NCBI RefSeq assembly: GCF_021233415.1
Contig: NZ_CP089466.1
Location: 1,178,001-1,242,000, forward strand
Direction of reading: 5' to 3'
DNA length: 64,000 nt
Source: Halobacterium litoreum
GTDB lineage: Archaea > Halobacteriota > Halobacteria > Halobacteriales > Halobacteriaceae
In this document: in pieces, positions 1 to 32,114 of the stretch
Layout: every line of letters begins with the position of its first letter
How positions within the stretch are numbered: position 1 is the stretch's first letter
Made by a program: the position numbers and the translations under genes
Notes under the pieces: model-generated
Database searches by the model: none
Seen by the model: the letters and a program-made list of their open reading frames with translations, nothing else
What the model was told of the DNA's origin: nothing

Positions 1-924
1 GGCGTCGGGCCGGGAGACACGGTGGTGACGACGCCGTTCTCGTTCGTCGCGAGCGCGAACGCGATTCGGCACGCGGGCGCCGAACCCGTCTTCGCCGACG
101 TCGACCCGGACACGCTCACGCTCGACCCCGACGCCGTCGCCGACGTGGCGGCGCGCCGCGACGACGTGGTCGCCGTCCTCGCCGTCCACCTCTACGGCGC
201 GCCCGCCGCGATGCGCGACCTGCGGGACGTCGCCGACGACCACGGCCTCGCGCTCGTGGAGGACGCCGCGCAGGCCCACGGCGCGGAGTACCGCGGCGAC
301 CGCGTCGGCTCGCTCGGCGACGTCGCCTGCTTCTCGTTTTACCCGACGAAGAACATGACGTCGGGCGAGGGCGGGATGGTCACCACCGACCACGACGCGC
401 TCGCCCAGCGCGTCCGGCGCTTCTGCGACCACGGCCGCACGCAGGGGTACGCCCACGTCCAACTCGGCCACAACTTCCGGATGACGAGTCTCTGTGCCGC
501 CATCGGACGGGCGCAACTGGAGAAACTCCCCGCGTACAACGACGCGCGCCGCGAGCACGCCGCCGCCCTCGACGCCGGCCTCGCCGGGACGAGCGTCGAG
601 ACGCCGTCGGTCCCCGCCGACGCCCGCTCGGTCTTCCACCAGTACACCGTCCGGAGCGACCACCGGGACGCGCTCGCCGACCACCTCGCGGAGCGCGGCG
701 TGGACACGGGCGTCTACTACCCGACGCCGATTCACCGCCAGCCGGCGTACGCCGACGTGCACGCCGAACTCCCGGTCGCCGAGCGCGCCGCCGACCGCGT
801 GCTCTCGCTCCCGGTCCACCCCGACCTCTCGGCCCGCGACCTCGACCGCGTCGTCGCCGCCGTCGAGTCCTTCGACGCCGCGCGAGACACCGCGACCGCC
901 CGCCGGGGCGTGATGGACTCGTGA
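1..924 (+). CDS. DegT/DnrJ/EryC1/StrS sugar aminotransferase (5' end missing)
   Basis: PLP-dependent aminotransferase of the sugar-nucleotide family, which adds an amino group to a keto-sugar. The reading frame is open from base 1, so the N-terminal part (roughly 60 residues by comparison with the family) lies outside the window. The PLP lysine is in the FYPTKNM stretch (codon at 349-351), preceded by the VEDAAQAHGA motif typical of the family; the glycine-rich SGEGGM segment follows. The stop overlaps the next gene by GTGA, so they are co-translated. The next gene is a Gfo/Idh dehydrogenase that could supply the 3-keto substrate. The family assignment is secure; the exact sugar is inferred. 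Confidence 0.93.
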   Translation, partial: GVGPGDTVVTTPFSFVASANAIRHAGAEPVFADVDPDTLTLDPDAVADVAARRDDVVAVLAVHLYGAPAAMRDLRDVADDHGLALVEDAAQAHGAEYRGDRVGSLGDVACFSFYPTKNMTSGEGGMVTTDHDALAQRVRRFCDHGRTQGYAHVQLGHNFRMTSLCAAIGRAQLEKLPAYNDARREHAAALDAGLAGTSVETPSVPADARSVFHQYTVRSDHRDALADHLAERGVDTGVYYPTPIHRQPAYADVHAELPVAERAADRVLSLPVHPDLSARDLDRVVAAVESFDAARDTATARRGVMDS

Positions 925-1895
925 CCGACGCTCCGCTCAGCGTGGGCGTAATCGGCGTCGGGAGCATGGGCCGGAACCACGTCCGCGTCTACCGCGAACT
1001 CGCGGAGACCGACCTCGTCGGCGTCGCGGACGCCGACCGCGAGGCGGCCGAACGCGTGGCCGGCGAGTACGGCACCGAGGCGTTCGCCACCGGCGACCTG
1101 CTCTCGCGGGTCGACGCCGTCTCCGTCGCCGTGCCCACGTCTGCCCACGCGCCGCTGGTCGCGGACGCCATCGACGCGGGCGTCCACGTCCTCGTCGAGA
1201 AGCCGTTCGTCGCGGACCCCGAGGAGGGCAGGGCGCTCGCCGACGCCGCGCGCGACGCCGGCGTCACACTCCAGGTCGGGCACGTCGAGCGATTCAATCC
1301 GGCAGTCCGGACGCTCGCGTCCATCCTGCCGGGCCTCGACGTCATCGCCGTGACTGCCGAGCGCCTCGGGCCGCCCGTGGACCGCGACCTCGACGCGAGC
1401 GTCGTCTCCGATTTGATGATTCACGACATCGACGTGGCGTGCGCGATGCTCGACGCCGACCCGATTTCGGTCTCGGCCTCCGGCACCGCGGACGGCGAGT
1501 ACGCGACCGCGCACTGCTCGTTCGAGGGCGGCGTCGTCGCCTCACTCACCGCGAGCAGGGTCACCCAACAGAAGGTCCGGCGCTTCGCCGTGACCGCCCG
1601 CGAGTGCCGCGTCACGGTGGACTACCTCGACCAGTCCGTCGAGATTCACCGGAGTTCGACGCCCGAGTACGTCGCCACGAACGGCGACCTCAGGCACCGC
1701 ACCGAGAGCGTCGTGGAGCGCCCGCTCGTGGAGAACGGCGAACCCCTGAAACACGAACTCGCGTCGTTCGCGGACGCCGCGCGGAACGGCACCGACCCCG
1801 TCGTCACCGCCGAGGACGGCGTGCGCGCGGTCGAACTCGCGTCCTGCATCGAGGGACTGGTCGCCACCCGCGACACCGCGGAGGTGTGGACGTGA
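921..1895 (+). CDS. Gfo/Idh/MocA family oxidoreductase (possible UDP-GlcNAc(A) 3-dehydrogenase)
   Basis: 324-residue NAD(P)-dependent sugar oxidoreductase. An N-terminal Rossmann fold with GVIGVGSMG at about residue 9 and the family EKP motif near residue 93 are visible, followed by the C-terminal alpha/beta substrate domain with a conserved HDID-type segment. The GTG start is set by the GTGA overlap with the aminotransferase. In the WbpB/WbpE pair of diacetylated uronic acid pathways, such an enzyme oxidises C3 before the aminotransferase acts, and the gene order here fits that. The substrate is inference. Confidence 0.9.
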   Translation: MTDAPLSVGVIGVGSMGRNHVRVYRELAETDLVGVADADREAAERVAGEYGTEAFATGDLLSRVDAVSVAVPTSAHAPLVADAIDAGVHVLVEKPFVADPEEGRALADAARDAGVTLQVGHVERFNPAVRTLASILPGLDVIAVTAERLGPPVDRDLDASVVSDLMIHDIDVACAMLDADPISVSASGTADGEYATAHCSFEGGVVASLTASRVTQQKVRRFAVTARECRVTVDYLDQSVEIHRSSTPEYVATNGDLRHRTESVVERPLVENGEPLKHELASFADAARNGTDPVVTAEDGVRAVELASCIEGLVATRDTAEVWT

Positions 1896-3271
1896 CCCGG
1901 CGCCTCTACGGGTCGACGGCCGCGACGGACACCCAACGCGAGTGGTTCCGCACCGGCGACGTGCCGGTCGCGGTGTACGGTCTCGGGAAGATGGGGCTGC
2001 CGTTGGCCGCCGTCTACGCCGAGAACTGCGGGAACGTCACCGGCGTCGACGTGGACGAGTCCGTGGTCGAGGCCGTGAACGCGGGCGACTGCCCGGTCGA
2101 CCGCGAACCCGGCCTCCCGGGACTCGTGCGCGAACTCGTCGGACGGGGCGCGCTCCGCGCGACCACCGACTCGACGCGCGCCGCCGAAGACGCCGCCGTC
2201 CACGTCGTCATCGTGCCGACCGTCCTCACCGACGAGAAGGAACCCGACCTGTCCGCGGTCACGTCTGTCGCGGCGGACGTGGCCTCGGGGCTCTCGTCGG
2301 GCGACCTCGTGGTCGTCGAATCGACGGTTCCGCCCCGTACGTGCGCGGACGTGGTCGAACCGATGCTCGCCGACCGGAGCGGCCTCGAATCGGGCGAGTT
2401 CGGCGTGGCGTTCTGCCCCGAGCGCACGTCCAGCGGGCGCGCGCTCGCCGACGTGCGGGGCACCCACCCGAAGGTCGTCGGCGGCGTCGACGACGAGGCC
2501 ACGCGCGTGGCCGAACTCGTCTACGGCGAACTCGTGGCCAACGACGTGATTCCCGTCTCGGACGCCGCCACCGCGGAGGCCGTCAAGGTGTTCGAGGGGC
2601 TCTACCGGGACGCGAACATCGCGCTCGCGAACGACCTCGCGCGCCTCACGGACGAACTCGCTATCGACGTGCGGGAGGCCATCGACGCCGCGAACACCCA
2701 GCCCTTCTGTGACATCCACGAGCCGGGCGCGGGCGTCGGCGGCCACTGCATCCCGTACTACCCGTACTTCGTCTTGAACTGGCTGCACGCCGACGCGCCG
2801 CTCGTGCGCACCGCCCGCGAGGTCAACGACGCGATGCCGGGGTTCGTCGCCGACCGGGTCGCCGAAGGCCTCGCCGCGCAGCACGCCGACGACGCCGCGA
2901 TGGCGACGAACGGCGGCGACGCGCTCGCGGACGCCTCGGTCGCCGTCCTCGGGCTCGCGTACCGGGCGGGCGTCGCGGAGACGCGCGCCAGCCCCGGTAT
3001 CGACGTCTGCGAGCGCCTCGCGGAGCGCAACGCGACCGTCTACGCGGCCGACCCGCTCGTGGACGCCGAGGGCGTGCCGGCGGAGGACGTGGCGATAGCC
3101 GACCTGCCCGAGACCGACCTCGACGCCGCGGTGCTCGCCACCGCCCACGAGGAGTTCGAGGATATCGACTGGCCGGCGTTCGACCCGCTGGTCGTCGTGG
3201 ACGGCCGAGACGCCCTCGACCTCTCGGCCACCGACCACCGCCAGTACACCGTCGGGAGGGGGTGGCAGTGA
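1892..3271 (+). CDS. Nucleotide-sugar 6-dehydrogenase (UDP-GlcNAc/UDP-ManNAc dehydrogenase type)
   Basis: 459 residues, normal for the WecC/WbpA/UDP-glucose dehydrogenase family, which oxidises C6 of a UDP-sugar to the uronic acid with two NAD+. The Rossmann motif YGLGKMG lies near residue 29, and the catalytic cysteine is C286 in GGHCIPYYPYF. The C-terminal UDP-binding domain begins around residue 350. I chose the GTG at 1892 because it overlaps the previous stop by GTGA and directly precedes the conserved domain; the open frame upstream of it only shadows the previous gene. It probably makes the uronic acid building block of the surface glycan. Confidence 0.93.
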   Translation: MTRRLYGSTAATDTQREWFRTGDVPVAVYGLGKMGLPLAAVYAENCGNVTGVDVDESVVEAVNAGDCPVDREPGLPGLVRELVGRGALRATTDSTRAAEDAAVHVVIVPTVLTDEKEPDLSAVTSVAADVASGLSSGDLVVVESTVPPRTCADVVEPMLADRSGLESGEFGVAFCPERTSSGRALADVRGTHPKVVGGVDDEATRVAELVYGELVANDVIPVSDAATAEAVKVFEGLYRDANIALANDLARLTDELAIDVREAIDAANTQPFCDIHEPGAGVGGHCIPYYPYFVLNWLHADAPLVRTAREVNDAMPGFVADRVAEGLAAQHADDAAMATNGGDALADASVAVLGLAYRAGVAETRASPGIDVCERLAERNATVYAADPLVDAEGVPAEDVAIADLPETDLDAAVLATAHEEFEDIDWPAFDPLVVVDGRDALDLSATDHRQYTVGRGWQ

Positions 3272-11702: not shown

Positions 11703-13544
11703 ATGTCATCGACACCGAACCGCCTCCGGAAACTCGCGCTCGTCGCGGGGTTCGCGGGACTCGCCGTCGCCGTCCTCGCCGCCCACCGAACGCCCGCCGC
11801 CGGCTACGAGATATCGCCGTACGCCGCCACGCCGCGGGCCGTCTGGGCGGGGGTCGGCGTCGCGCTCGCCGCCGGTGCGCTCGGCGCGCTCACCGCGCCA
11901 GCACGCAGTCGCAGTCGAGACGCCGGCGTCCTGCTCGTCGTCGGGAGCGCGCTCGCCGTCTACGCGATGCCCGTGATTCGCGGGTACGAGTTCTACGGCG
12001 CCGGCGACGCGCTCAGTCACGTCGGGTGGGCCCGGGAAATCGCCTCGGGCGCCCTCGAACCGACGAACCTCCTCTACCCCGGCGTCCACACGCTCACCGT
12101 GTTCGTCTCGGGCGTCGCGGACGTCCCGCTCCCGCTCGCGAACAACTACGTCGTGCTCGTCGCGTTCCCGCTCGTCTTCCTGCTGTTCGTGCCGCTGGCC
12201 GCACAACTGCTCGCCGGGACGCCGACGGCGTACGCCGTCGGCCTGCTCGCCGCCGTCGTCTTCGTCCCCATCAACAACATCGCCGTCCACCCCATCGCCC
12301 ACCCCGCGAGCCAGGCGATTCTCGCGTTCGCGTTCCTGCTGTACCTCGCGCTCGCGTACGCCGTCGGCGTCCTCGACACCGGCGCCGGCGCCGAACCCGG
12401 CGGCGACCGAGCGCACGGTTCGCTCGGCCGGCCGTTCTCCGTGACTGGAACGGGCGGCCTGCTCGCGCTCGCGTCGGCCGCCATCGTCCTCGTCCACCCC
12501 CAGCAGGCGCTGAACGTCGCGCTCGTCTTCGTCGCGGTGTCGTTCGTCCAGTTCGTCGGTCGGTGGTACTTCGACGACCACCCGGTCACCACGCACCGCC
12601 CGCTTTACCTCCACACCGCCGTGCTCGTCGGCGCGTTCGCGCTCTGGGCGCCGCGCTTCGAGCGCGCGCAGGGCGCCGCCCAGTCGACCATCCGGAGCAT
12701 CCTCCAGCAGGGCGCGTCCACCGGCGACGTGGTCGCCGCGAAGTCCGCGTCGCTCACCGTCGTCGGCGGCAGCCTCCCCGAAATATTCCTGAAACTGTTC
12801 GGCACCGCCACCGTCGTCTCCCTGCTCGCCGCCGGCCTGCTCGTCGTCGCGCTGCGCCGACACCGCCGCGGCCCGGACTCGCTGGTCGCGTACGTCGCCG
12901 CCGGGTTCGTCCCGCTCGTCGCCGTCTTCGCCGTCGTGCTCGCGGCCGAGCAGGGCGACATGTACTTCCGGTACCAGGGATTCATCATGGTGCCCGTGAC
13001 GGTGGTCGGGGCCGCCGCGCTCGCCCGCGCCCGAGGGTGGTTCGCGGGCCGCGACCACCCGAGAGCCGGCACCGCCGTCGTCGCCGCGCTCCTCCTTGTG
13101 CTCGTGCCCGTCGGTCTCGTCGCCGTCCACCCGTCGCCGTACATGTACCAGCCCTCACAGCACGTCACCGAGGAGCAGGTCGCCGGCTACGACGCGGCGT
13201 TCGAGCACCGCGACCCGGACGTCCCGTTCACCGGCCTCCGTGGTGGCCCCCGGCGGTTCGTCGACTACCACTACGGCACCCAGCAGGCGCGCACGACGCT
13301 GAACTTCCCCGGCTACGAGGCCGGGACGCTGCCGTCGACGTTCGCGAACGCGAGTTACGCCGACGCCTACGAGACCACCCGGTACCTCGTGATATCGGCT
13401 GCCGTCCGCGAGACGGAAGTGGAGTTGTACGACGGCTTCCGGTATCCCCGGCGCGGGTTCGAGTTGCTGGAGTCGACGCCGGGCGTCGCGCGCGTCCGGT
13501 CGAACGGCGAGTTCCGGCAGTACGTCGTCGAGGGTGACGAATGA
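11703..13544 (+). CDS. Polytopic membrane protein, GT-C glycosyltransferase-like
   Basis: 613 residues with about 11-13 hydrophobic helices and an extracellular C-terminal domain of about 120 residues (from about 490). The loop GAGDALSHVGWAREIASG after the third helix has the acidic-residue pattern of GT-C enzymes or glycan polymerases that use lipid-linked sugars. The last four bases overlap the flippase gene (ATGA), linking it to export of the glycan. No precise family is recognised; a polymerase, ligase or GT-C transferase role is inferred from topology and position. Confidence 0.7.
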   Translation: MSSTPNRLRKLALVAGFAGLAVAVLAAHRTPAAGYEISPYAATPRAVWAGVGVALAAGALGALTAPARSRSRDAGVLLVVGSALAVYAMPVIRGYEFYGAGDALSHVGWAREIASGALEPTNLLYPGVHTLTVFVSGVADVPLPLANNYVVLVAFPLVFLLFVPLAAQLLAGTPTAYAVGLLAAVVFVPINNIAVHPIAHPASQAILAFAFLLYLALAYAVGVLDTGAGAEPGGDRAHGSLGRPFSVTGTGGLLALASAAIVLVHPQQALNVALVFVAVSFVQFVGRWYFDDHPVTTHRPLYLHTAVLVGAFALWAPRFERAQGAAQSTIRSILQQGASTGDVVAAKSASLTVVGGSLPEIFLKLFGTATVVSLLAAGLLVVALRRHRRGPDSLVAYVAAGFVPLVAVFAVVLAAEQGDMYFRYQGFIMVPVTVVGAAALARARGWFAGRDHPRAGTAVVAALLLVLVPVGLVAVHPSPYMYQPSQHVTEEQVAGYDAAFEHRDPDVPFTGLRGGPRRFVDYHYGTQQARTTLNFPGYEAGTLPSTFANASYADAYETTRYLVISAAVRETEVELYDGFRYPRRGFELLESTPGVARVRSNGEFRQYVVEGDE

Positions 13545-15010
13545 CGCTCGCCGAGCGCATCGTGCGCGGCGCGAAGGCGTCGCTCGGCGCGACGATGCTG
13601 GACATCCTCACGAACGCCGCGCTCGTCGTGTTGCTCACGCGCGTCCTCCTGACGCCCAACGAGTACGGCCAACTCAACTTCGTGCTGTCGGCGCTCGGCG
13701 TCGTCACCATCCTCGCGACGCTCGGCATCCCGAAGTCGACGGCGCGCTACGTCACCGAGTTCGCGGAGACCGACCCCGGCCAAGTGCCCCACGTCGTCAA
13801 GAAGTCCGTCGTCTTCCTCGGGTCGCTCGTCGCCGCCGTCTCCGTGGCGACGCTCCTGCTCGGGCGCCCGGTCGCGAACGCGCTCGGCACGCCCTCGGTC
13901 GTTCCCTATCTGCTCGCCGGCAGCCTCTACGTCGTCGGGCGCGCCGGCCGCACGTACTTCACCGCGCTGTTCCAGGGGTTCAACCGCGTGACGTACAGCG
14001 CCACCGTCTCCTCCGTCGCGAGCGCGAGCCGGCTCCCGTTCGTCGTCGCGTTCGTCGTCCTCGGGTTCGGCGTCGGCGGCGCGCTGTTCGGCTACGTCGC
14101 GAGCGGCGTGCTGGCGACGTTCGTCGGCGCCTACATCGCGTACACGAAGTTCTACTCGAAGTACGACGCCGCCGACGAACCGGACGCCGACCTCTCGAAG
14201 CGCTTACTGGAGTACAGCATCCCGCTGACCGCGACTCGGGGCGCGAACGTCCTCGACAAGAAAGTCGACACGCTGCTCGTCGGCGTCCTCCTGAACATGA
14301 CCGCGGTCGGCTACTACACCGTCGCGAAGCAGGTGTCTGACTTCGTCGCCGCGCCCGCGTCCTCGTTCGGGTACGCCGTCTCGCCCGCGCTCGGCGAGCA
14401 GTCCTCGAAAGACGAGATAGAGCGCGCCGCGACCCTCTACGAGCAGTCTCTGGAGTACGTCCTCGTCGCGTATCTCCCGGCGGTCGTCGGCCTCGTGTTG
14501 GTCGCCGACCCGATGATTCGGTACGTGTTCGGCACCGACTACCTCGGCGCCGTCCCCGTCGTGCAAGTGTTCGCGGGGTTCATGCTCGTGAACGCCGTCA
14601 ACAAGGTCACCAGCGACGGCCTCGACTACCTCGGTCGCGCCCGCTCGCGGGCCATCATCAAGTCCGCGATGGCCGTCTCGAACTTCTGTCTGAATCTCGT
14701 CCTCATCCCCGTCCTCGGCGTCGTCGGCGCGGCGCTCGCGACGGTCGCGACGTACACCGTCTACACGCTCTCGAACGTCTACTTCATCCACCAGGAACTG
14801 GCCTTCGACGTCCCCACCGTCCTCCGGACGCTCGGCGCCGTCGCCCTCGTCACGGTCGCGATGGCGGGCACCGTCTGGGTCGCGCTCCCGTACGTCTCCG
14901 GCCTGCCGACGCTGTTCGCGACGGTGTTCCTCGGCGGCGCGACGTGGGCCGCGCTCTCCGTCGCCGGCGGCATCCTCGACGTGCGGAAGGTCGCGAACCT
15001 CCTGACGTGA
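13541..15010 (+). CDS. Wzx-type polysaccharide flippase (MOP superfamily)
   Basis: 489 residues with about 14 membrane helices throughout. The N terminus (AKASLGATMLDILTNAALVVLLTRVLTP-like) and the internal RGANVLDKKVDTLLVG segment around residue 230 are typical of RfbX/Wzx proteins that move lipid-linked oligosaccharides across the membrane. ATG overlaps the stop of the preceding membrane protein (ATGA). It supports a lipid-linked repeat-unit mode of assembly for this locus. Confidence 0.92.
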   Translation: MTLAERIVRGAKASLGATMLDILTNAALVVLLTRVLLTPNEYGQLNFVLSALGVVTILATLGIPKSTARYVTEFAETDPGQVPHVVKKSVVFLGSLVAAVSVATLLLGRPVANALGTPSVVPYLLAGSLYVVGRAGRTYFTALFQGFNRVTYSATVSSVASASRLPFVVAFVVLGFGVGGALFGYVASGVLATFVGAYIAYTKFYSKYDAADEPDADLSKRLLEYSIPLTATRGANVLDKKVDTLLVGVLLNMTAVGYYTVAKQVSDFVAAPASSFGYAVSPALGEQSSKDEIERAATLYEQSLEYVLVAYLPAVVGLVLVADPMIRYVFGTDYLGAVPVVQVFAGFMLVNAVNKVTSDGLDYLGRARSRAIIKSAMAVSNFCLNLVLIPVLGVVGAALATVATYTVYTLSNVYFIHQELAFDVPTVLRTLGAVALVTVAMAGTVWVALPYVSGLPTLFATVFLGGATWAALSVAGGILDVRKVANLLT

Positions 15011-15059: not shown

Positions 15060-16031
15060 ATGCAGGCAAGCCCCACGCGAACAGTCGAACGGTCCGCCGT
15101 CCCCGAAGACCTCCGCGACACCACCGTCCTCGTCACCGGGGGCGCGGGGTTCGTCGGCAGCCACATCGCGGACGCGCTCGTCGAGGACGCCGACGTGCGC
15201 GTGCTCGACGACTTCTCGACGGGGCGCCGAGAGAACGTCCCGGCGGGCGCGACGATTCACGAGGGCGACGTGCGCGACCCCGAGACGGTCGCCGAGGCGA
15301 TGGCCGGCGTGGACGTGGTGTTCCACGAAGCCGGCCTCGTGAGCGTCCCCGAGTCCGTCGAACAGCCGGCGTTGAGCCACGACTGCAACGCGACCGCGAC
15401 GCTCGGCGTGCTGGAAGCCGCGCGCCGCGAGGACGCCCGCGTCGTCGTCGCGTCCAGCGTCGCCGTCTACGGGAACCCGGTCGACGTCCCGATTCACGAG
15501 GGCGACCCGAAGGAGCCGACCTCGCCCTACGGCGTCGACAAACTCGCCATCGACCAGTACGCCCGGCTCTACAGCGACCTCTACGGGCTGGAGACCGTGG
15601 CGCTCCGGTACTTCAACGTCTACGGCCCCCGGCAGTCCGCCGGCCAGTACAGCGGCGTCATCTCCACGTTCCTCGAACAGGCCCAGTCCGGCCAGCCCCT
15701 GACGGTGGAGGGCGACGGCACCCAGACCCGTGACTTCGTCCACGTCTCGGACGTGGTGCGCGCGAACCTCGCGGCCGCCACCACCGACCGCGTCGGGCGC
15801 GCGTTCAACGTCGGCACCGGCGACAGCGTCACAATCCGCGAACTCGCCGACCTCGTCATCGACGCCACGGACGCGACCCAGGGCGTCGTCCACCGCCCGC
15901 CACGCGAGGGAGACGTCGAGCGCAGTCGCGCCGACGTGACGCGAGCGCGCCGCCAACTCGGCTACGAACCGACCGTCGAACTCGGGGAGGGGCTGCGGGA
16001 ACTCGCGAAGAGCGCGGCGCGAGTGCGGTAG
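15060..16031 (+). CDS. NAD-dependent sugar epimerase/dehydratase (GalE-like)
   Basis: 323-residue extended short-chain dehydrogenase. The Rossmann motif GGAGFVGSH is at residues 27-35 and the catalytic YxxxK is Y157-K161 (YGVDK). The RYFNVYGPRQ segment around residue 182 is typical of UDP-GlcNAc/UDP-Glc 4-epimerases of the WbpP/GalE group. It probably interconverts UDP-sugars for the glycan. It is the last forward gene before the reverse-strand block. Confidence 0.92.
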   Translation: MQASPTRTVERSAVPEDLRDTTVLVTGGAGFVGSHIADALVEDADVRVLDDFSTGRRENVPAGATIHEGDVRDPETVAEAMAGVDVVFHEAGLVSVPESVEQPALSHDCNATATLGVLEAARREDARVVVASSVAVYGNPVDVPIHEGDPKEPTSPYGVDKLAIDQYARLYSDLYGLETVALRYFNVYGPRQSAGQYSGVISTFLEQAQSGQPLTVEGDGTQTRDFVHVSDVVRANLAAATTDRVGRAFNVGTGDSVTIRELADLVIDATDATQGVVHRPPREGDVERSRADVTRARRQLGYEPTVELGEGLRELAKSAARVR

Positions 16032-16831: not shown

Positions 16832-16858
16832 CTCTCGTTGTCGTGTTTCGGTTCTCGT

Positions 16859-17464
16859 CTACGCCGACCCGAACTCGAACTCGCCGAAGTACGCGTTGTT
16901 GCCGGGGTTCTCCCACGAGAACTGGTCGTCGAACGCCACGAGCCACTCCGAGGACTTGCCGAGTTTCGCTTCCTGGTCCGGCGGCATCAACGGATGAGGG
17001 AAGGCGGTCCCGGGTTCGTCGTGGAAGCCGGTGCGCTGGTCGACCGCCATCGAAACCGCGTCGCCGGCTTCGAACTCGAAGTGCCCGTCGCTACTGGTGT
17101 ACTCGAACGGGAGCGAGACGACGTCGACGACCTCGTCGATCAGTCCGCGCAGCGCACCGAACAGGCCGCCGGCCTCCCCGGAGAAGATCATCTGGAGGGC
17201 TTCGGACTGCGGTTCGTCTGCGGCCTCGTCGAGCACGAGCACGACGTCCCAGCCGCCCTCGAAGAGCACGCCCTCCTGGTCGAGGAGCACCCCGCCGGTG
17301 AGCCCGTCCAACGAGACGTCCCCGTAGTTCCCCTCCTCGATGTTCCAGAACACGCCGGCGTTGCAGACGTCGTCCGTCGGTGATTCGAACCAGAGGCACT
17401 GGCAGGGCACCTCGCAGTTGCAACACTCCACGTACTCGCCGGCGATCGTCCAGTCTTCAGTCAT
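16859..17464 (-). CDS. DUF1326 domain protein (Cys-rich)
   Basis: 201 residues. The N terminus carries a dense cysteine motif (C14, C15, C17, C21, C23, C34) followed by the DUF1326 beta-rich domain. No signal peptide. It is the first gene of a two-gene operon with DUF2182, suggesting a soluble partner, perhaps metal-binding, for the membrane protein. An ATTACAAA element ends 25 nt before its ATG. Function is unknown. Confidence 0.85.
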   Translation of the reverse strand: MTEDWTIAGEYVECCNCEVPCQCLWFESPTDDVCNAGVFWNIEEGNYGDVSLDGLTGGVLLDQEGVLFEGGWDVVLVLDEAADEPQSEALQMIFSGEAGGLFGALRGLIDEVVDVVSLPFEYTSSDGHFEFEAGDAVSMAVDQRTGFHDEPGTAFPHPLMPPDQEAKLGKSSEWLVAFDDQFSWENPGNNAYFGEFEFGSA

Positions 17465-18465: not shown

Positions 18466-19593
18466 TTACTCGGCGTCCCGGGAGACGACCGGTTCGACCG
18501 GGTGGCTCTCCCGCGGTTCGGCGCGGCTCGCGGCGTTCCTGACCTCCTCCATGAGGTAACTCGTCCACCGGGACTCGGCGAGCGGCACCGGCATCGCGTC
18601 CGGGTCGCCAGCTTCGAGCGCGCGGGACTCGGCGTCGTTCTGGTAGTAGTGCGCGTTCAGCAAGCGGAGCGTGTCCCAGTCGTCGCTCCGGTTCCGCCGG
18701 AGGACGGCGCGCGCGTTCTTCACCGTGCCCGCCGTGCGGTCGACCGCCTGGTCGACGTTGTTCAGCACGCGCCCCACGGCAGACCCCTTGTAGTTCCGGT
18801 CGTGTTCGACGAGCGTCTGGGATATCAAGTCGGCGGTGAGGGATTTGTCCTCGCCGTGAATCAGGAGTTGGCGGACGGGCCGCGTGCCGCCGAGCACCTT
18901 CGTCGTGCAGAGCACGCCGTCGTCGGTGTGGTACTGGAGTTGCGCGCCGTCGTACGCGAAGTCGCGGTCGTAGTCGCCGTACAGCGCGGTGGTCGCGGCG
19001 ACGGCGTCCTCGCTGCGGGGGTAGCCGCCCGCGCGCAGCGTTAGGTAGATGGGGTGGGGGATTCCCTCCTCGAACTCGCCGCCCGCGAGCTCGAAGTTCC
19101 ACGGCCCGCGGTTCGGGTCGTCCGGGCGACTCGACCCCGTGTAGATGACGTCGACGCCGCGGACGTCGCCGAGTTCGCCGTCGCGTTTCTGTCGCATCGC
19201 CTCGCGCACGACGGGGTCGAAGTCGTGGTTGTGCTTCTCGGAGACGACGACGCCGTGGCGCTCGGCGTGGGCCGCGAGTTCCTCGAACTCCTCGTAGGTC
19301 TCCGTGATGGGTTTCTCTATCTGGACGGGAATCCCGGCCTCGATGATTCGCTTCGCGATGGGGAGGTGGGTCTGGACCGGCGTGCAGACGTGGACCCAGT
19401 CGAGGTCGGTGTCCGCGAGCAGCGACTCCACGTCGAAGTACGCCGCGACGTCGTAGTCCTCGGCGATTTCGCGGGCGGTCTCTTCGTCGGTGTCGCAGAC
19501 GGCGACGAGTTCCGTCCGGGGGTTCCGGTCGAGGCCGGAGAGGTGGACGCCCGAGACGGTGCCGCCGCCGACGACAGCGCTTCGCAGTGTCAT
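18466..19593 (-). CDS. Gfo/Idh/MocA family oxidoreductase (second copy)
   Basis: 375 residues. The Rossmann motif VVGGGTVSGVH is at residues 7-17 and the catalytic-lysine motif EKPITE near residue 95. The C-terminal domain contains PHPIYLTLRAGGYPR, a substrate-binding His region. ATG 19593 was selected because a perfect promoter element lies 25 nt upstream and it precedes the Rossmann motif directly; in-frame codons upstream lack family similarity. It is distinct from the Gfo/Idh gene at 921 and is coupled to the ParB-like gene. Confidence 0.88.
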   Translation of the reverse strand: MTLRSAVVGGGTVSGVHLSGLDRNPRTELVAVCDTDEETAREIAEDYDVAAYFDVESLLADTDLDWVHVCTPVQTHLPIAKRIIEAGIPVQIEKPITETYEEFEELAAHAERHGVVVSEKHNHDFDPVVREAMRQKRDGELGDVRGVDVIYTGSSRPDDPNRGPWNFELAGGEFEEGIPHPIYLTLRAGGYPRSEDAVAATTALYGDYDRDFAYDGAQLQYHTDDGVLCTTKVLGGTRPVRQLLIHGEDKSLTADLISQTLVEHDRNYKGSAVGRVLNNVDQAVDRTAGTVKNARAVLRRNRSDDWDTLRLLNAHYYQNDAESRALEAGDPDAMPVPLAESRWTSYLMEEVRNAASRAEPRESHPVEPVVSRDAE

Positions 19594-19618
19594 CGCCGGC
19601 ACGTCGCCCCGTCGGCGC

Positions 19619-19626
19619 ATTGTTAT
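19619..19626 (-). promoter_or_regulatory. ATAACAAT promoter element
   Basis: Reverse-strand perfect ATAACAAT ending 25 nt before the ATG at 19593. Confidence 0.6.
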
Positions 19627-19633
19627 GGAGCGG

Positions 19634-20218
19634 CTAGCCCCGCTCGCGGGCCGGTTCGGGGGGCGACGGACGGAGCCAGCGGAGTCCCGGCGTTCCGTCG
19701 GCCACCCAGACGGCGACGGCGGCGGCGACGAGCGCCGCGTCCGCAAGCAGGTAGAGCGCGCCCCGCGGCGTCCCGAGGAACCGGACGAACGCGCCGACGA
19801 GGTCCTGTAGGTGCGGGAGGGCGCTGGTCGTCCCGCCGTCCGGTGCGGGAATCACCGGCCACAGCAGGAAGCCGGCGCGCAGTTCGCCGTCGACGACGAG
19901 CGGGTACGCCACGTCGCCCGCGAGATGGGAGAGGTAGCCGACGGCGAACGCGACGCTCGCTCTGGAGTCGCCGCGAGCCCGCCCCGCGGCGAGCGCGACC
20001 GCGACGACCGGGACGGCGACGAGCAGCGAGTGCCCGAGCGACCGGCCCGACGGCAGGACGGCGAGCCACCACGCCAGCGGCTTGTCCACGAGGTCGGGGA
20101 GCAGGCTCGCGAACCCGACGACGACCGCGGCGCGCGTCGACGGCGGCCGCCCCCACAGCCACCGACTCGCCGCCGAGTAGAGGAGGTACGCTGCCGCGGC
20201 GTGTTCCCATGGCCACAT
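19634..20218 (-). CDS. YdjM/LexA-binding-type membrane-bound metal-dependent hydrolase
   Basis: 194 residues with four to five membrane helices. WPWEHAAAAYLL at the N terminus, FASLLPDLVDKPL, GRSLGHSLL and YLSHLAGDVAYP reproduce the spaced His/Asp pattern of the YdjM (PF04307) family of inner-membrane predicted hydrolases. The ATG overlaps the stop of DUF1616 (ATGA). Substrate unknown; context suggests envelope or lipid metabolism. Confidence 0.82.
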   Translation of the reverse strand: MWPWEHAAAAYLLYSAASRWLWGRPPSTRAAVVVGFASLLPDLVDKPLAWWLAVLPSGRSLGHSLLVAVPVVAVALAAGRARGDSRASVAFAVGYLSHLAGDVAYPLVVDGELRAGFLLWPVIPAPDGGTTSALPHLQDLVGAFVRFLGTPRGALYLLADAALVAAAVAVWVADGTPGLRWLRPSPPEPARERG

Positions 20219-21276
20219 CAGACTAGACTCGGACTCGCGCTCCCTGCCGCGCTCGCGCTCGCGTTCCCGGCGCTCGCGCGCTGGACGTCGACCCAGAGGA
20301 ACAGGTGGTGTGGCGCGCTCGAAGCGGACGCCTCGCTGGGCGCGTCGCCGGGGTAGACGAAGACGTTCATGCGGAGGTCGTCACCGAGCATCGTCGGGCG
20401 CGCCGTGAGCGTGCGCTCGGCGGTCCGCTCGTCGGGCACGGAGAGGCCGATGCGGTCGAGTTCCTCGCGTTCGAGGACGACCGTCTGGCCGTCGGTCGTG
20501 CGGACGCGCTGGAGCACGAGGACGGCGGTGTACTCCCGCGACTCGCCCTCGCGGTTCTCGACGGTGAGCGTGACGTTCGCCGGGTCGCCGCGCTCGATGC
20601 TCGTGGTGTAGTTGCTCGCGACGAGGTCGCCGCCGCGGTCGTCTAAGAGCGCGACCTCGGTGTACGCCTCGCCGCGGTCGGGGGCCGCGAGGCCGACGGC
20701 GAGCGCGCTCGCGGCGGCGACGACGGCGACGGCGAGCGCGACGTTCAGCGCCGCGTCGACGGCGGGGACGTCGACGGTCGACGCTTTCGCCTCGGCGCGA
20801 AGCCGGGCGACCGGGACGACGAGGCGGTCCTCGCTCGGCAGGCGGAGGCGGCGCCACGCGCCGAGGAGCGCGCCCGCCGCGACGACGGCGACGACGGCGA
20901 CGGTGAGCGTGCGCGCGCCGAAGTCGAGGCCGAGCAGCGAAATCGGCACGCCGAGCAGGACGACGAGAACGAGCGACGTGGCGACCGAGAGGCTCAGGCG
21001 CTCGACCCAGTTCGGGCCGCGAACCCAGCGCGTCCGGCGGCGGGCGGGGTCGAGGACGCCGCGCGCCGGGAACAGCGCGGAGACGGTGGCGTACCCCGGC
21101 GCGAACCCGAGGAGGACGGCGGCGAGCGCGACTTGCGCCGGCCCGGTCACCACGTCGGCGAGGAGCAGCGAGCCGGCGACGAGCGCGAACCCGGCGACTG
21201 CGGCGAGGTCGCCGGTCGCCGCCGCGAGGCCGTGGTCGCCCGGACGCGACTCGACGGCGTCGCTGTCACGCATCAT
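20218..21276 (-). CDS. DUF1616 membrane protein
   Basis: 352 residues. Four hydrophobic helices between residues 20 and 135, then a fifth near 190, followed by an external domain with NYTTSIERGDPANVTLTVENREGE, a DUF1616-type beta-sandwich region. It ends in an Ala/Ser-rich tail. Start taken at the ATG at 21276 (a second ATG follows directly); no in-frame start exists closer to the promoter. It overlaps the YdjM-like gene. It probably serves the surface-glycan or S-layer machinery, by context only. Confidence 0.82.
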   Translation of the reverse strand: MMRDSDAVESRPGDHGLAAATGDLAAVAGFALVAGSLLLADVVTGPAQVALAAVLLGFAPGYATVSALFPARGVLDPARRRTRWVRGPNWVERLSLSVATSLVLVVLLGVPISLLGLDFGARTLTVAVVAVVAAGALLGAWRRLRLPSEDRLVVPVARLRAEAKASTVDVPAVDAALNVALAVAVVAAASALAVGLAAPDRGEAYTEVALLDDRGGDLVASNYTTSIERGDPANVTLTVENREGESREYTAVLVLQRVRTTDGQTVVLEREELDRIGLSVPDERTAERTLTARPTMLGDDLRMNVFVYPGDAPSEASASSAPHHLFLWVDVQRASAGNASASAAGSASPSLV

Positions 21277-21375: not shown

Positions 21376-22740
21376 CTACGAGTGGAAGAAACTCATCACG
21401 TAGTACAGCGGCCGCTCGTAGACGTCCGGCTCCTTCGAGAAGCCGATGTGGGAGCCGATCTGGGCGTTGTTGAAGTGCGCGTACTGGGGGCCGCGGAGGA
21501 TGCGGTGGAGGAGCCGGTCGTCCATCGAGATGCGGACGTAGCCGTCGCTCGTGTCCGCGGCGTCCGCGGTCGTAATCTCGTAGCCGTCGCCGCTCATCGA
21601 CAGCGCCGCCACCTTGTCGTCCACGAGGTCCAGCAGGACGGTGGTGTCGCTCTCCCAGTTCACGTCCTGGCGTTTCGCCTCCATGTGCTCGTAGGCCGGT
21701 TCCACCAGGTCCGCGAGGTCCGTGAGGCTCGGGTGGTCGTCTGCCTCGTGGGGGAACGTGCGGTCGGCGAGTTCGGTCTCGATGTACTCGCGGCGCTCGT
21801 CCGGGTCGACGGGCGTGTACGGCTCGGAGGGGCGTTCCTCGTCTAAGTCGAAGTACGCCTCGCTGTTCAACAGAATCGGTTCGCTGTGCGCTGGCTCGAT
21901 GTTCTCGCTGCCCGCGAAATGCCAGTACGCCTCCTGTCGCGTGGGCGACGCGACGTACTGGTTTCGGTGGGCGAGCGACCCGGCGAGCGTGTAACTGCCC
22001 GCGAACGGCATGAAGTACCGCGGTTCGAGCGCGTTCACGAACCCCTCGGCGTCCTCGTACATCTCCCCGATGACTTCGTCGCGGGCGTCGAGGCGCTGTT
22101 CGTGCGTGTAGTCCTCCATGCACTGCGGGTAGAAGTTCGCCGCGGCGTACTGCATCAACAGCAAGTCGATGTCCTCGTACTGGTCGTTCACGACGGCGCA
22201 GGCGCGCTCGGAGAGCGGCCACCGGCAGTCGTTGGCGTTCACGACGACGTTCTCGCCGTCGTCGAAGACGCCCATCGAGTCGATCTGCGTGGAGCCGTCA
22301 GTGGTGCGCTCGCTGGAGGACTCCATCCACCAGCCACAGCCGAAGTAGTTGCCACACGCCTCGGGGTCGCAGTTGTCCGCGCCGAGGACGTTGATGTGGA
22401 GGTCGCCCGCGAGGTGGGTGCGTTCGGCGTGGGGCAGTTCGATGGCGTCGAACCCGAGGCGTTCGACGTTCTGCTTGAGGAAGTCGGTGGCGTAGTCGTG
22501 GATGAGGACGGGGATGTCGGAGTCCAGTCGCTCCATCGTCTCCCGGTGGAAGTGGTCCGGGTGGATGTGGGAGACGTAGATGTAGTCCACGTGGTTGTAG
22601 TCTTCTGGTTCGAACTCCAGCGGGGGGTAGTGCGCCCACGAGCCGTAGAACGCCCCGTCGAGGAGCCACGGGTCACACAGGACCGACGTGTCCCCCGACT
22701 CCACGACGACGCTCGACGACTTCAGGTGGCGGAGTCGCAT
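21376..22740 (-). CDS. MBL-fold metallo-hydrolase, CMP-N-acetylneuraminate hydroxylase (CMAH)-like
   Basis: 454 residues. The metallo-beta-lactamase metal motif H58-x-H60-x-D62-H63 (SHIHPDHFH) is intact. Later segments VVVNANDCRWPL, LLLMQYAAANFYP, LEPRYFMPFAGSY and the C-terminal RLLHRILRGPQ...FNNAQIGSHIGF correspond in order to the vertebrate CMAH catalytic part as I recall it. The Rieske iron-sulfur domain of CMAH is absent. This points to a hydrolase or oxidoreductase acting on a nonulosonate- or amino-sugar-like substrate in this glycan locus. Substrate is unproved. Confidence 0.78.
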   Translation of the reverse strand: MRLRHLKSSSVVVESGDTSVLCDPWLLDGAFYGSWAHYPPLEFEPEDYNHVDYIYVSHIHPDHFHRETMERLDSDIPVLIHDYATDFLKQNVERLGFDAIELPHAERTHLAGDLHINVLGADNCDPEACGNYFGCGWWMESSSERTTDGSTQIDSMGVFDDGENVVVNANDCRWPLSERACAVVNDQYEDIDLLLMQYAAANFYPQCMEDYTHEQRLDARDEVIGEMYEDAEGFVNALEPRYFMPFAGSYTLAGSLAHRNQYVASPTRQEAYWHFAGSENIEPAHSEPILLNSEAYFDLDEERPSEPYTPVDPDERREYIETELADRTFPHEADDHPSLTDLADLVEPAYEHMEAKRQDVNWESDTTVLLDLVDDKVAALSMSGDGYEITTADAADTSDGYVRISMDDRLLHRILRGPQYAHFNNAQIGSHIGFSKEPDVYERPLYYVMSFFHS

Positions 22741-28255: not shown

Positions 28256-28383
28256 GAGCGAGTTTCGCACCGCGTACCCGACGGAGCCGGCGCGACGCGC
28301 CGAAAATCAGTGCCCTGTGGCGCGCCCTCGGAAGCCGACGCTACCCGTCGATGAGGGGTGACAGCGACTCACACAGGAGATGG

Positions 28384-28391
28384 GTAACAAT
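28384..28391 (+). promoter_or_regulatory. GTAACAAT promoter element
   Basis: GTAACAAT, 43 nt before the ATG at 28435; a leader of about 17 nt is expected. Confidence 0.5.
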
Positions 28392-28434
28392 ACATCGGCT
28401 CCGCCTACTCCCGGAGCGACCCCCGCCAACTCCA

Positions 28435-29604
28435 ATGTACCGAGGCCACACCACCGCCGTCGTCGTGCCGGCGTACAACGAGGAACCGTTCGTCGCGGAC
28501 ACGATCGCGTCCGTCCCCGGCTTCGTCGACCGCGTCTACGTCGTCGACGACGGCTCGACGGACGGGACGTGGGACGAGATTCGGCGCGCCGCCGCGAGCG
28601 CCGACCAGCGCCCCGAAGCCACCGAGTTCGCGGAGCGCGTCGTCCCCATCCAGCACGACGCCAACCGCGGCGTCGGCGGCGCCATCAAGACCGGCTACCT
28701 GCGCGCGAGAACCGACCGAATCGAACTGACCGCGGTGATGGGCGCGGACGGCCAGATGGAACCCGAGATGCTCGGCGACCTCTTCGACCCAATCGTCGAG
28801 GGGCGGGCCGACTACACGAAGGGCAACCGCTTCCTGGGCGCGACCGACCGCGGCGACATGCCCGCCCACCGGTTCGTCGGGAACGCCGCGCTCGCCGCGC
28901 TCACGAAGGTCGCGAGCGGCTACTGGAGCGCTGGCGACCCGCAGAGCGGCTACACCGCCATCTCGCTGCGCGCGCTGGAGGCAGCCGACATCGACGGGAT
29001 GTACGAGTTCTACGGCTACTGCAACGACCTGCTCGTGAAACTGAACGTCGCCGAGATGCGCGTCGTCGACGTCCCGCGCCCCATCACGTACGGCGAGGAG
29101 GAGAGCCACATCAGGTACCGGAGTTACGTCCCGCGGGTCTCCGCGATGCTCGCGCGGAACTTCGGCTGGCGGCTCGGCCGGAAGTACCTCGTCTACGACT
29201 TCCACCCGCTCGTCGGTGCGTACGCGGCGGGCGCCGTCGCCTCGACCGCGGGCGCCCTCGGCCTGCTGTGGGCGCTGCCCGGCGTCGGGTCGTTCGCCAC
29301 GCCCGTGGCGCGCGGCGCAATCGCGCTCGCCTTCCTCCTGCTCGGCGCGCTCGCGTTCGTCGCCGCGATGACGATGGACATGCACGCCAACGCCCACCTC
29401 AGCGACAGCGACGACCCCTACGGCCGCGACGCACAGCGAGCGCGCGGGAACCGCGACACGGACGCCGTGCAGGTCGAACTCCCCGCCGCCGAGTGGTCGT
29501 CGCTGCTCGACGATGCGTCACCGAACGGGGACGCACCGGAGGCCGCGCGCCGGCTCCGCGAACGCCTCCGCGACCGCGTCGCCGAACCCGACCGCGCGGA
29601 CTGA
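28435..29604 (+). CDS. Glycosyltransferase family 2, dolichyl-phosphate-sugar synthase-like, membrane-anchored
   Basis: 389 residues. The GT2 domain has VVVPAYNEEPFVADTI at residues 9-24, VVDDGSTDGTW (DD motif), MGADGQMEPEML (DxD-like) and SGYTAIS. Two C-terminal helices (about 255-275 and 285-310) and a charged cytoplasmic tail follow. The start at 28435 is used because an open frame upstream would run across the promoter element. It probably loads a sugar on a polyprenyl/dolichyl phosphate for N-glycosylation or polymer assembly. Confidence 0.9.
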   Translation: MYRGHTTAVVVPAYNEEPFVADTIASVPGFVDRVYVVDDGSTDGTWDEIRRAAASADQRPEATEFAERVVPIQHDANRGVGGAIKTGYLRARTDRIELTAVMGADGQMEPEMLGDLFDPIVEGRADYTKGNRFLGATDRGDMPAHRFVGNAALAALTKVASGYWSAGDPQSGYTAISLRALEAADIDGMYEFYGYCNDLLVKLNVAEMRVVDVPRPITYGEEESHIRYRSYVPRVSAMLARNFGWRLGRKYLVYDFHPLVGAYAAGAVASTAGALGLLWALPGVGSFATPVARGAIALAFLLLGALAFVAAMTMDMHANAHLSDSDDPYGRDAQRARGNRDTDAVQVELPAAEWSSLLDDASPNGDAPEAARRLRERLRDRVAEPDRAD

Positions 29605-29653: not shown

Positions 29654-31000
29654 ATGTTCGGTACGAGCGGCATCCGCGGCGAGTTCGGGACCGACGTGAC
29701 GGCGGGGCTCGCGCTCCGCGTCGGCCGCGCCGTCGCCTCGGAGGGCTGCGAGCGCGTCGTCGTCGGGCGCGACCCGCGGAAGACCGGGCCCGTGCTCGTC
29801 GACGCCGTCTCCGCGGGGCTCCGGGAGTGTGGCGCCGACGTGGTGCGCGTCGGCGAGGTGCCGACGCCGACGGTCGCGCGGTCGGTCGAGTGGTACGACG
29901 CGGACGCCGGTATCGCGGTGACGGCGTCCCACAACCCGCCCGCGGACAACGGCCTGAAACTCTGGAGCGCGGACGGCTCTGCGGTCGTCGGCGACGAGCA
30001 GGCGGCCGTCGCGGAGCGACTGGAGCGAGACGACTTCCGCCCCCGGCGGTGGGGCGAAATCGGCGGTTCGCGGACGGTGGCGTCGGCGTACCGTCGCCAC
30101 GTCGCCGCTATCGCTGACGCCGTCACGGTCGACCCGCCGCTCGCCGTCACCGTCGACGTGGGTCACGGGAGCGGCCGCCTCTCGGCGACCGCGCTCCGCA
30201 AACTCGGCTGCGAGGTGGAGACGATGAACGCGCTCCCGGACGGCTCGTTCCCGGCGCGCCCGAGCGAACCGACCGCCGAGAACTGCGAGCGCCTCCGGCG
30301 CGTCGTCGCGCAGACGGACGCCGACTTCGGGGTCGCCCACGACGGCGACGCGGACCGCGCGCTCGCCGTCACCGAGTCCGGGCGGTTCGTCTCCGGGGAC
30401 GTGTTGCTCGCGCTGTTCGCGCGCCGAGAGGCCGGTCCGGGCGACCGAGTCGCGGTCCCAATCGACACGAGCGTCGCGGTGCGCGACGAACTCGCGGCGG
30501 TCGGCGCGTCCACGACGTTCACGAAGGTCGGGGACGGCCACGTCGCCGCGCGCACCGCCGACGACGACGTGGTGTTCGGCGGCGAGCCGAGCGGCGCGTG
30601 GATTTTCCCGGCCCTGTCGCGGTGCCCGGACGGCCCGCTCGCCGCCGCGAAACTCGCCGCGCTGGTCGCCGACCACGGCTCGCTGGACGCGCTCGTCGAG
30701 GACGTGAGCTCGGTGCCGATTCGCCGCGAGAGCGTGCGGACCGACGCGAAACGCGACGTCGTCGAGCGCGTGCGCGGCCTCGTCGCCGACCGGTACGCGA
30801 ACGTCACGAGCGTCGACGGCGTCCGCGTCGACGAGGACGACGGCTGGTTCCTCGTGCGGGCCAGCGGTACCCAGCCTCTCGTCCGCGTCACCGCCGAGGC
30901 GCGGGACAGCGACCGGATGCGTGCGCTGTTCGACAGCGCCCGCGACCTGGTGTCGACGGCGGCGCGGTCGGTCGGCGCGGAGACCGAACTCGCCGGCTAG
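29654..31000 (+). CDS. glmM: Phosphoglucosamine/phosphohexomutase (GlmM)
   Basis: 448 residues, full length for the family. Active-site phosphoserine S92 in TASHNPP, the metal loop DGDADR near residue 234, the sugar-binding loop GGEPSGAW near 313, and the phosphate-binding RASGTQPLVR at about 405 are all present. It converts glucosamine-6-phosphate to glucosamine-1-phosphate (and possibly other hexoses). It is followed by glmU with glmS close by, so the locus supplies UDP-GlcNAc to the glycan genes upstream. Confidence 0.92.
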   Translation: MFGTSGIRGEFGTDVTAGLALRVGRAVASEGCERVVVGRDPRKTGPVLVDAVSAGLRECGADVVRVGEVPTPTVARSVEWYDADAGIAVTASHNPPADNGLKLWSADGSAVVGDEQAAVAERLERDDFRPRRWGEIGGSRTVASAYRRHVAAIADAVTVDPPLAVTVDVGHGSGRLSATALRKLGCEVETMNALPDGSFPARPSEPTAENCERLRRVVAQTDADFGVAHDGDADRALAVTESGRFVSGDVLLALFARREAGPGDRVAVPIDTSVAVRDELAAVGASTTFTKVGDGHVAARTADDDVVFGGEPSGAWIFPALSRCPDGPLAAAKLAALVADHGSLDALVEDVSSVPIRRESVRTDAKRDVVERVRGLVADRYANVTSVDGVRVDEDDGWFLVRASGTQPLVRVTAEARDSDRMRALFDSARDLVSTAARSVGAETELAG

Positions 31001-31015: not shown

Positions 31016-31043
31016 GCACTAGGTTCGCGTCGGAGGCGTGCGT

Positions 31044-32114
31044 ATGCAAGCAGTGATTCTCGCGGCCGGCAGGGGACGACGCATGGCGCCGCTGTCGTCG
31101 GTCGCGCCGAAACCGATGCTACCGGTGGCCGACCGCCCGCTCGCGGCGCACGTCGCTGACGCGGCGGTCGCCGCGGGCGCCGACGAACTCGTGTTCGTGG
31201 TGGGATACGGCGCCGAACACGTCCGCGCGTACTTCGGCGACCGGTACGACGGCGTGCCCGTGGCGTACGCCGAACAGGAGACCCAGTCGGGCACCGCGGA
31301 CGCGGTGCGCGCGGCCCGCGAGCGCCTCGACGGCCGGTTCGCGGTGCTGAACGGCGACAACGTCTTCGACGCCGCGAGCGTCAGCGAGTTGTTCGCGCAC
31401 GACGCCGCGGTCGCCGCCCACCGGGTGCCCGACCCCTCCGAGTACGGCGTGCTCTCCACCGAGGACGGGGTGGCGACGGGCATCGTGGAGAAGCCCGACG
31501 ACCCGCCGACCGACCTCGCGAACGCCGGCGCGTACGTCTTCCCCGAGTCGGCGCTCGACGACCTCGACGTCCCCGCGAGCGAGCGCGGCGAGCGCGAACT
31601 CACGGACGTCCTCGCGGCGGTCGTCGCGCGCCGCGACGTGGCGGTCGTCGCGACCGAGGAGTGGCGCGACGTGGCGCGACCGTCGGACCTGCTGGCGGCC
31701 AACGACCGCGCGCTCGAAGCGCTCGAACCGCGGACCGAGGCCGTCCCGCCGACGGCGACGGCGCGGGGGACGGTGCGGGTCGCGGACGGCGCCACCGTCG
31801 AACCGCGCGCCCGCCTCGACGGCCCCGTGTTCGTCGCGGACGGCGCGACCGTCGGACGGAACGCCGTCCTCGAGGGACCCGTCGTCGTCGGGCCGGGCGC
31901 GCGCATCGGCGCCGACGCGACCGTCTCCTCGGTCGTCCTCCTCGCGGACGCGGCGGTCGGCGCGGACGGGAGCGTCCGGGGTGCGGTCGTCGGTCCGGAC
32001 TGTAGCGTGGCGACGGGCGCGCGACTCGCGGGCGTCTCCGGCGAGACGAGGACGAGCGCGGCCGCCGTCGTCGCCGCCGACGCGTCGCTCGGCGGCGGGC
32101 TCCGATACCGGTGA
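31044..32114 (+). CDS. glmU: Sugar-1-phosphate nucleotidylyltransferase with hexapeptide tail (GlmU-like)
   Basis: 356 residues. The N-terminal nucleotidyltransferase domain is complete: LAAGRGRRM at residues 6-14, KPMLPV, QSGTADAV near 78, and NGDN. The C-terminal hexapeptide region (from about 240) is short and rich in VxDGAxV repeats. Start at ATG 31044, with GTG 31038 as alternative. It likely makes UDP-GlcNAc or another NDP-sugar. Acetyltransferase capacity is less certain because the beta-helix is short; a paralogue at 32894-33934 may supply it. Confidence 0.88.
   Translation: MQAVILAAGRGRRMAPLSSVAPKPMLPVADRPLAAHVADAAVAAGADELVFVVGYGAEHVRAYFGDRYDGVPVAYAEQETQSGTADAVRAARERLDGRFAVLNGDNVFDAASVSELFAHDAAVAAHRVPDPSEYGVLSTEDGVATGIVEKPDDPPTDLANAGAYVFPESALDDLDVPASERGERELTDVLAAVVARRDVAVVATEEWRDVARPSDLLAANDRALEALEPRTEAVPPTATARGTVRVADGATVEPRARLDGPVFVADGATVGRNAVLEGPVVVGPGARIGADATVSSVVLLADAAVGADGSVRGAVVGPDCSVATGARLAGVSGETRTSAAAVVAADASLGGGLRYR

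Follow-up and report, generated by a model that had tools for sequence, protein, structure and literature searches.

What does a CMAH-like MBL protein do in an archaeal glycan locus if it carries no Rieske domain? The question is posed by a gene of Halobacterium litoreum, within a 64-kb stretch of DNA that we call the window. The first-pass annotation of this stretch had suggested that the protein may perform another reaction than CMAH, on a nonulosonate or an amino sugar. It had missed the strand: the 454-aa ORF, which opens with ATG, sits on the minus strand (22740-21376), and translation of this segment on the plus strand runs into a stop. As the ORF displays haloarchaeal coding bias (GC1/2/3 of 0.64/0.38/0.93, 20% acidic residues), is 80% identical in protein sequence to a counterpart in Halobacterium bonnevillei and is present as one full-length copy in the window genome, we take it as confirmed that 21376..22740 is a genuine gene. 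Among open-licence papers, we found none on a Rieske-free CMAH-like family. The gene and its parts are as follows.

21376..22740, minus strand: Rieske-free CMAH/NamH-like MBL protein, 454 aa (ORF, domain, profile and tree evidence)
21814..22740, minus strand: MBL-fold domain, residues 1-309, with conserved likely ligands H58, H60, D62, H63 and D171 (model, PDB matches, invariant columns)
21376..21813, minus strand: C-terminal domain, residues 310-454, with a predicted SCP2-like fold (separate model, pLDDT 93.6)
22336..22371, minus strand: cysteine insertion at MBL motif 3, C124, C129 and C135 (together in 68/82 members)
22225..22227, minus strand: C172, beside the conserved D171 (Cys in 62/82 members, all within the 68 that carry the motif)

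The gene is patchily distributed. At E<=1e-12, 48 of 391 genomes sampled from the class match the protein: its own genome, 46 others and G350, whose match is a Rieske-MBL protein and not of the Rieske-free type. Two of the 46 others are incomplete, with a C-terminal fragment in G025 and two pieces in G230. Near full-length genes are found in 4/26 genomes of the organism's taxonomic family. The C-terminal piece was matched alone at G025:C1:42165-42536 (L005) and likewise on a Salarchaeum plasmid (H24).

Searches with the window protein returned a sole Pfam hit, a weak N-terminal MBL match (Lactamase_B_3, 27.7 bits; cut-off 24), and the UlaG-type/UPF0173 model of NCBIfam, NF001911, scored 19.8 bits against a cut-off of 144. 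Pfam gave no Rieske hit in the protein, neither N- nor C-terminal, and the protein starts at the MBL domain. A model predicted with 54 relatives has a mean pLDDT of 92.3, with residues 135-150 below 50. The sequence does not reach Pfam SCP2_Rv3818, although the predicted fold of residues 310-454 is SCP2-like (VIA Z 9.6 to 3bdq_B, an SCP2 structure, rmsd 3.1 over 105 aligned residues; the best Foldseek E was only 0.004). For residues 1-309, the fold search bunched UlaG-like, NAPE-PLD and CmlA structures at Z 18-22, a tie, so that the predicted fold alone would not tell the window MBL from any of these. The MBL metal motif that the first-pass annotation described is indeed kept: HxHxDH is present in 82/82 family members (H58, H60, D62 and H63 here), and these four residues and D171 are invariant in 79/79 Rieske-free members of the alignment.

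To place the family, we built a profile from 54 relatives and scored it against control proteins. An archaeal Rieske-MBL protein reached 151.6 bits, two NamH-like proteins 126.9 and 125.6, and CMAH 93.7, the CMAH control being an unsourced sequence. Seven UlaG-like haloarchaeal MBLs stayed at or below 28.0 bits, and among 200 shuffles of the CMAH sequence the top score was 4.1. Thus, a closer kinship to UlaG than to CMAH, which the annotation had named as the finding that would overturn it, did not emerge (at most 28 bits for UlaG-like proteins vs 94-152). The ordered CMAH-like segments that it had reported were recovered as three collinear matches of the unsourced CMAH to the profile: the MBL core, NTxDC...PFAG and a weak C-terminal piece. 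The signature A..[YF]P + P[FSYC]A[GKAS] is found in 76/82 family members, 3/3 CMAH-type and 2/2 NamH-like proteins, and 0/7 UlaG-like controls. An assignment as a plain UlaG-type MBL was considered and set aside; profile scores and signature disfavor it, and the fold search alone does not separate the two.

NamH is described as having an N-terminal UlaG domain and a C-terminal Rieske domain (PMC10050696), and as acting on UDP-MurNAc with molecular oxygen (PMC10234563); its substrate is a UDP-GlcNAc-derived sugar (PMC10234563, PMC6378297). One source presents CMAH as a distant homologue of NamH, both reactions being those of a monooxygenase (PMC6481270), and an excerpt of a 2016 review states that no CMAH structure was then known (PMC4819959). 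Two plasmid proteins, L141 and L142 (Nocardia and Tsukamurella, genera in the order listed), are NamH-like, with an MBL domain at the N-terminus, a match to Pfam SCP2_Rv3818 and, at the C-terminus, a Rieske domain; a BLAST alignment of L141 and the window protein spans 361 aa at 27% (pairwise E-values come from single-sequence searches). Homology of the window protein to CMAH across the MBL domain and the part following it, that is, over most of its length, is well supported by the sequence comparisons. On the same comparisons, NamH is at least as near a characterized relative as CMAH; the annotation was right about the CMAH likeness and left NamH unnamed. To our knowledge, muramic acid is absent from archaea.

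Archaea also encode proteins with a Rieske domain in the CMAH position. The protein L006, encoded in a different genome of the genus, is 626 aa long, carries a Rieske domain at its N-terminus (Pfam, 43 bits) and shares 25% identity with the unsourced CMAH over 533 aa; on these features, it is an archaeal CMAH-type protein. Such Rieske-MBL proteins were found in 3/391 class genomes, one of them as a fragment with an in-frame stop, and 3/3 of these genomes hold NeuB vs 76/391 overall (hypergeometric 0.007). In L006 (307-2187), L131 and L132, the C-terminus resembles the hybrid-cluster-associated redox disulfide domain (TIGR03980, 37.9 bits, under the cut-off of 44.95). The G350 copy of the Rieske-MBL gene (L135) shares its locus with NeuB and an enzyme resembling PseF.

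Phylogeny separates these groups. For a quick tree we left out the short rows L101, L102, L115, L116 and L130, as well as L128, L135 and L136, each a duplicate or of Rieske type; from the careful tree, of 72 rows, 18 further near-copies were dropped. In the latter, the sampled Rieske-free proteins form one clade (96/98), as do the CMAH types (99/95) and NamH (100/96). The window protein lies in the Rieske-free clade, outside that of CMAH, in which the unsourced CMAH is long-branched. The protein is thus neither a CMAH nor a NamH in the strict sense, as it lacks the Rieske domain and stands outside both clades. How CMAH and NamH branch relative to the Rieske-free clade is weakly supported (87/63), and long branches (unsourced CMAH, L118-L121) leave the deep order uncertain. 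Haloarchaeal members form one clade, in which the pair G173/G372 diverges first.

In the tree, the family is thus bracketed by two N-acetyl hydroxylases, CMAH and NamH, with a weakly supported order between these. As it is so bracketed, the same reaction on another sugar seems a better expectation than another reaction. We therefore favor, with moderate confidence, a reading in which the window gene encodes a Rieske-free member of the CMAH/NamH superfamily that hydroxylates the N-acetyl methyl group of a nucleotide-activated amino sugar, to yield an N-glycolyl sugar for a cell-surface glycan. For the chemistry, substrate and electron route of the window protein, we infer the following. A metal center held by H58, H60, D62, H63 and D171, in which the metals are probably iron, would activate O2 as the oxidant. 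The activated O2 would then hydroxylate the N-acetyl methyl group to N-glycolyl. Electrons may arrive from a separate ferredoxin or Rieske ferredoxin, or through a cysteine site next to the metal center. The substrate in H. litoreum may be UDP-GlcNAc itself or a sugar derived from it, for instance a 3-amino uronate, and in many other members a nonulosonate.

The gene neighborhood speaks to the substrate. Consistent with the archaeal glycan locus proposed in the annotation, the window contains GlmM, a GlmU-like enzyme, a GT2 glycosyltransferase and a flippase.

921..1895, plus strand: UDP-GlcNAc 3-dehydrogenase-like oxidoreductase (NF040723, 225.5 bits, below the cut-off of 450)
1883..3271, plus strand: nucleotide-sugar dehydrogenase (TIGR03026, 346.9; cut-off 189.8)
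13541..15010, plus strand: Wzx-type flippase (context in relatives)
15060..16031, plus strand: NAD-dependent sugar epimerase (context in relatives)
18466..19674, minus strand: Gfo/Idh/MocA oxidoreductase, start approximate (context in relatives)
19634..20218, minus strand: YdjM-like membrane protein (context in relatives)
20218..21276, minus strand: DUF1616 protein, downstream neighbor kept in relatives (context in relatives)
28351..29604, plus strand: GT2 glycosyltransferase, a neighbor of the MBL gene in several relatives (context in relatives)
29654..31000, plus strand: archaeal GlmM, phosphoglucosamine mutase (TIGR03990, 461.1; cut-off 439)
31038..32114, plus strand: archaeal GlmU-like sugar-1-P nucleotidylyltransferase/acetyltransferase (TIGR03992, 311; cut-off 292.1)

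The cassette is kept in several haloarchaea, on named plasmids in two of them. It comprises GT2, a PKD protein, a beta-helix protein (in one), the MBL protein, DUF1616, a YdjM-type hydrolase, Gfo/Idh, epimerase and flippase, plus GlmM and GlmU or GlmS. The UDP-GlcNAc 3-dehydrogenase-like enzyme, the nucleotide-sugar dehydrogenase and a DegT aminotransferase lie 18-21 kb from the MBL gene. At 16040-17464, two adjoining minus-strand ORFs, one with a Cys-rich N-terminus, presumably resemble a DUF2182/DUF1326 pair. NeuB was not found in the window genome (G000) at E<=1e-15 (it is present in 76/391 genomes of the class), which makes a nonulosonate substrate improbable there. Of the suggestion in the annotation, the nonulosonate is thus unlikely for this organism, and the bracketing speaks against a different reaction.

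Other members tell more about nonulosonates. A genome-wide scan yielded 79 loci, which by record titles are 27 haloarchaeal and 52 not. NeuB/PseI is present in 17/52 non-haloarchaeal and 0/27 haloarchaeal loci. For 48 loci, both the size of the genome and its number of NeuB genes were known; in 15 of these, NeuB falls within 10 kb of the MBL gene, vs 0.52 expected, and 38 of the 48 genomes contain NeuB. The 48 comprise L074 plus 47 of the 52 loci from outside the haloarchaea, with the other 26 haloarchaeal loci and L085, L088, L102, L108 and L113 left out. The cluster representatives of PseB, PseC, PseG and PseI exceed their NCBIfam equivalog cut-offs. PseI directly adjoins the MBL gene in L061, L070, L072, L085 and L100, followed by a GNAT acetyltransferase in L070 and L085. 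Bacteria and thaumarchaea, as well as a single haloarchaeon and some viral contigs, have the MBL gene in nonulosonate loci. The sialic-like sugar for which the annotation advised looking is likely in many other members and unlikely in the window organism. What the nonulosonate and haloarchaeal contexts have in common is an N-acetylated amino sugar.

This linkage has its bounds. In 35/52 non-haloarchaeal loci there is no NeuB nearby, some members (SAR11, Natrinema, Haloarcula) sit among housekeeping-looking genes, and among haloarchaea we found no link between the MBL gene and NeuB presence (9/47 vs 9.1 expected). The haloarchaeal case is L134:2523-14213 (G173, outside the scan list), where a PseB-, PseC-, NeuB-, PseF- and PseG-like cluster lies beside an MBL gene of the first-splitting branch. 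Three viral contigs, L127 (gene at 8001-9329), L128 and L129, pair the Rieske-free gene with NeuB, with a sugar aminotransferase in L127 and L128; judged by these genes, they carry nonulosonate cassettes. A methyltransferase cluster with TylF-type members adjoins the MBL gene at L098:9255-10001, L100:9224-9973 and L118:11301-12140, and such a neighbor might methylate the newly made hydroxyl.

If the protein is a hydroxylase, how might electrons reach it? The annotation was correct that no Rieske domain is encoded nearby: none lies within the 64-kb window, and the three in the window genome are all elsewhere. Likewise, in 79 loci none adjoins the MBL gene; L068 has one about 5.5 kb away, and L080 has one that resembles a bc-complex subunit. 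Two of the three Rieske proteins of the window genome are stand-alone and ferredoxin-like. The one that we tested as a partner, the Rieske ferredoxin L124, is present in 21/26 genomes of the taxonomic family, with or without the MBL gene (near full length in 4/26), and is thus general, so that no specific partner was found.

The cysteine insertion may offer another route. In the Rieske-free family it follows the pattern D-x-C-[DN]-P-x2-C-x5-C, and the three-cysteine motif is absent from 3/3 CMAH-type, 2/2 NamH-like and 7/7 UlaG-like rows. The C172 column holds Cys in 62/68 motif carriers and Asn in 13/14 members without the motif. L105-L114, L118, L119 and L121, many of them SAR11, lack the three cysteines and have Asn for C172; L106, L108 and L118 sit in nonulosonate loci. 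By analogy with MBL topology, the cysteines would lie near the metals. Tflp has been described as an MBL protein in which cysteines lie near a di-iron center and which gives an Fe-S signal (PMC7785958); it may serve as a precedent for such a site rather than a proof. Alternatively, the hydroxylase could take its electrons solely from a separate carrier, with the cysteines as a structural zinc site or as non-redox metal ligands. This variant, compatible with our preferred reading, is somewhat unlikely: the 14/82 members without the cysteines, three of them with NeuB in the locus (L106, L108, L118), and the stand-alone Rieske ferredoxin-like proteins of the window genome speak for it, but the generality of L124 speaks against it.

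Several results count against a hydroxylase: the missing Rieske domain in cis, the MBL-fold tie with plain hydrolases, the lack of a haloarchaeal NeuB link and the NeuB-less loci. An aerobe-marker test of the oxygenase idea did not discriminate, as COX1 is present in 44 of the 48 genomes in which NeuB was counted vs 310/326 in a background from one phylum. A protein of CMAH/NamH ancestry might instead be a hydrolase using zinc or another metal, with no redox chemistry; its most likely activity would then be N-deacetylation or deacylation of the same amino sugars. Hydrolysis is the default MBL chemistry, the fold search ties the protein with UlaG-like, SaxA and NAPE-PLD hydrolases, and SaxA, whose annotation is isothiocyanate hydrolase, ranks second among the PDB profile hits. 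We nevertheless consider a hydrolase unlikely, since the family is bracketed by two oxygenases, its profile is nearer to CMAH/NamH types than to UlaG-like MBLs, and redox-capable cysteines are co-conserved at motif 3. A CmlA/FrsH-type O2-dependent enzyme that hydroxylates another sugar position or a lipid-linked glycan, its SCP2-like domain holding the substrate or lipid, is improbable: FrsH (3.2e-8) and CmlA (8.5e-4) are among the best PDB profile hits and alkylsulfatases have SCP2-like domains similar to the C-terminal one here, but the sequence match covers only about 110 N-terminal residues, and that to CMAH and NamH types extends much further.

Returning to the N-acetyl hydroxylase, if the Rieske-free family makes N-glycolyl groups on other sugars, N-glycolylation would be far more widespread, and the monooxygenase chemistry of the CMAH/NamH MBL domain could be tested in smaller enzymes. 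That the Rieske domain is N-terminal in CMAH and C-terminal in NamH also suggests how evolution recruits redox domains. As a speculation that we regard as quite unlikely in full, the Rieske-free branch could be a third independent solution to feeding electrons, in which a cysteine-ligated iron or Fe-S center at motif 3 (C124, C129 and C135, with C172 beside D171) takes the place of a Rieske domain. A Rieske-free MBL-SCP2 ancestor of this kind would have given rise to CMAH and to NamH, each acquiring its Rieske domain independently and at the opposite end from the other. In bacteria, archaea and some viruses, such enzymes would make N-glycolyl hexosamines and acids of the N-glycolyl pseudaminic type.

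Set beside known systems, the window protein resembles NamH in its N-terminal MBL domain with HxHxDH, in the A..YP and P.AG signatures and perhaps in the SCP2-like domain predicted to follow, whereas NamH has a C-terminal Rieske domain and a role in peptidoglycan and lacks the cysteine insertion. With CMAH and L006/L131/L132 it shares a collinear match across the MBL domain and the part after it, and the metal ligands; CMAH differs in its N-terminal Rieske domain, its own clade and its lack of the cysteine motif, and the window genome has no NeuB. The likeness to the diiron monooxygenases CmlA and FrsH is in the MBL fold and in the sequence of about the first 110 residues, with no match further on; their large domain before the MBL is absent, as the window MBL begins at residue 1-2 and the match in FrsH starts at 253. 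Finally, UlaG/UPF0173 hydrolases share the MBL fold and a weak N-terminal sequence match, but the window protein falls far under their curated cut-off, and the UlaG-like controls carry neither the superfamily signature nor the C-terminal domain.
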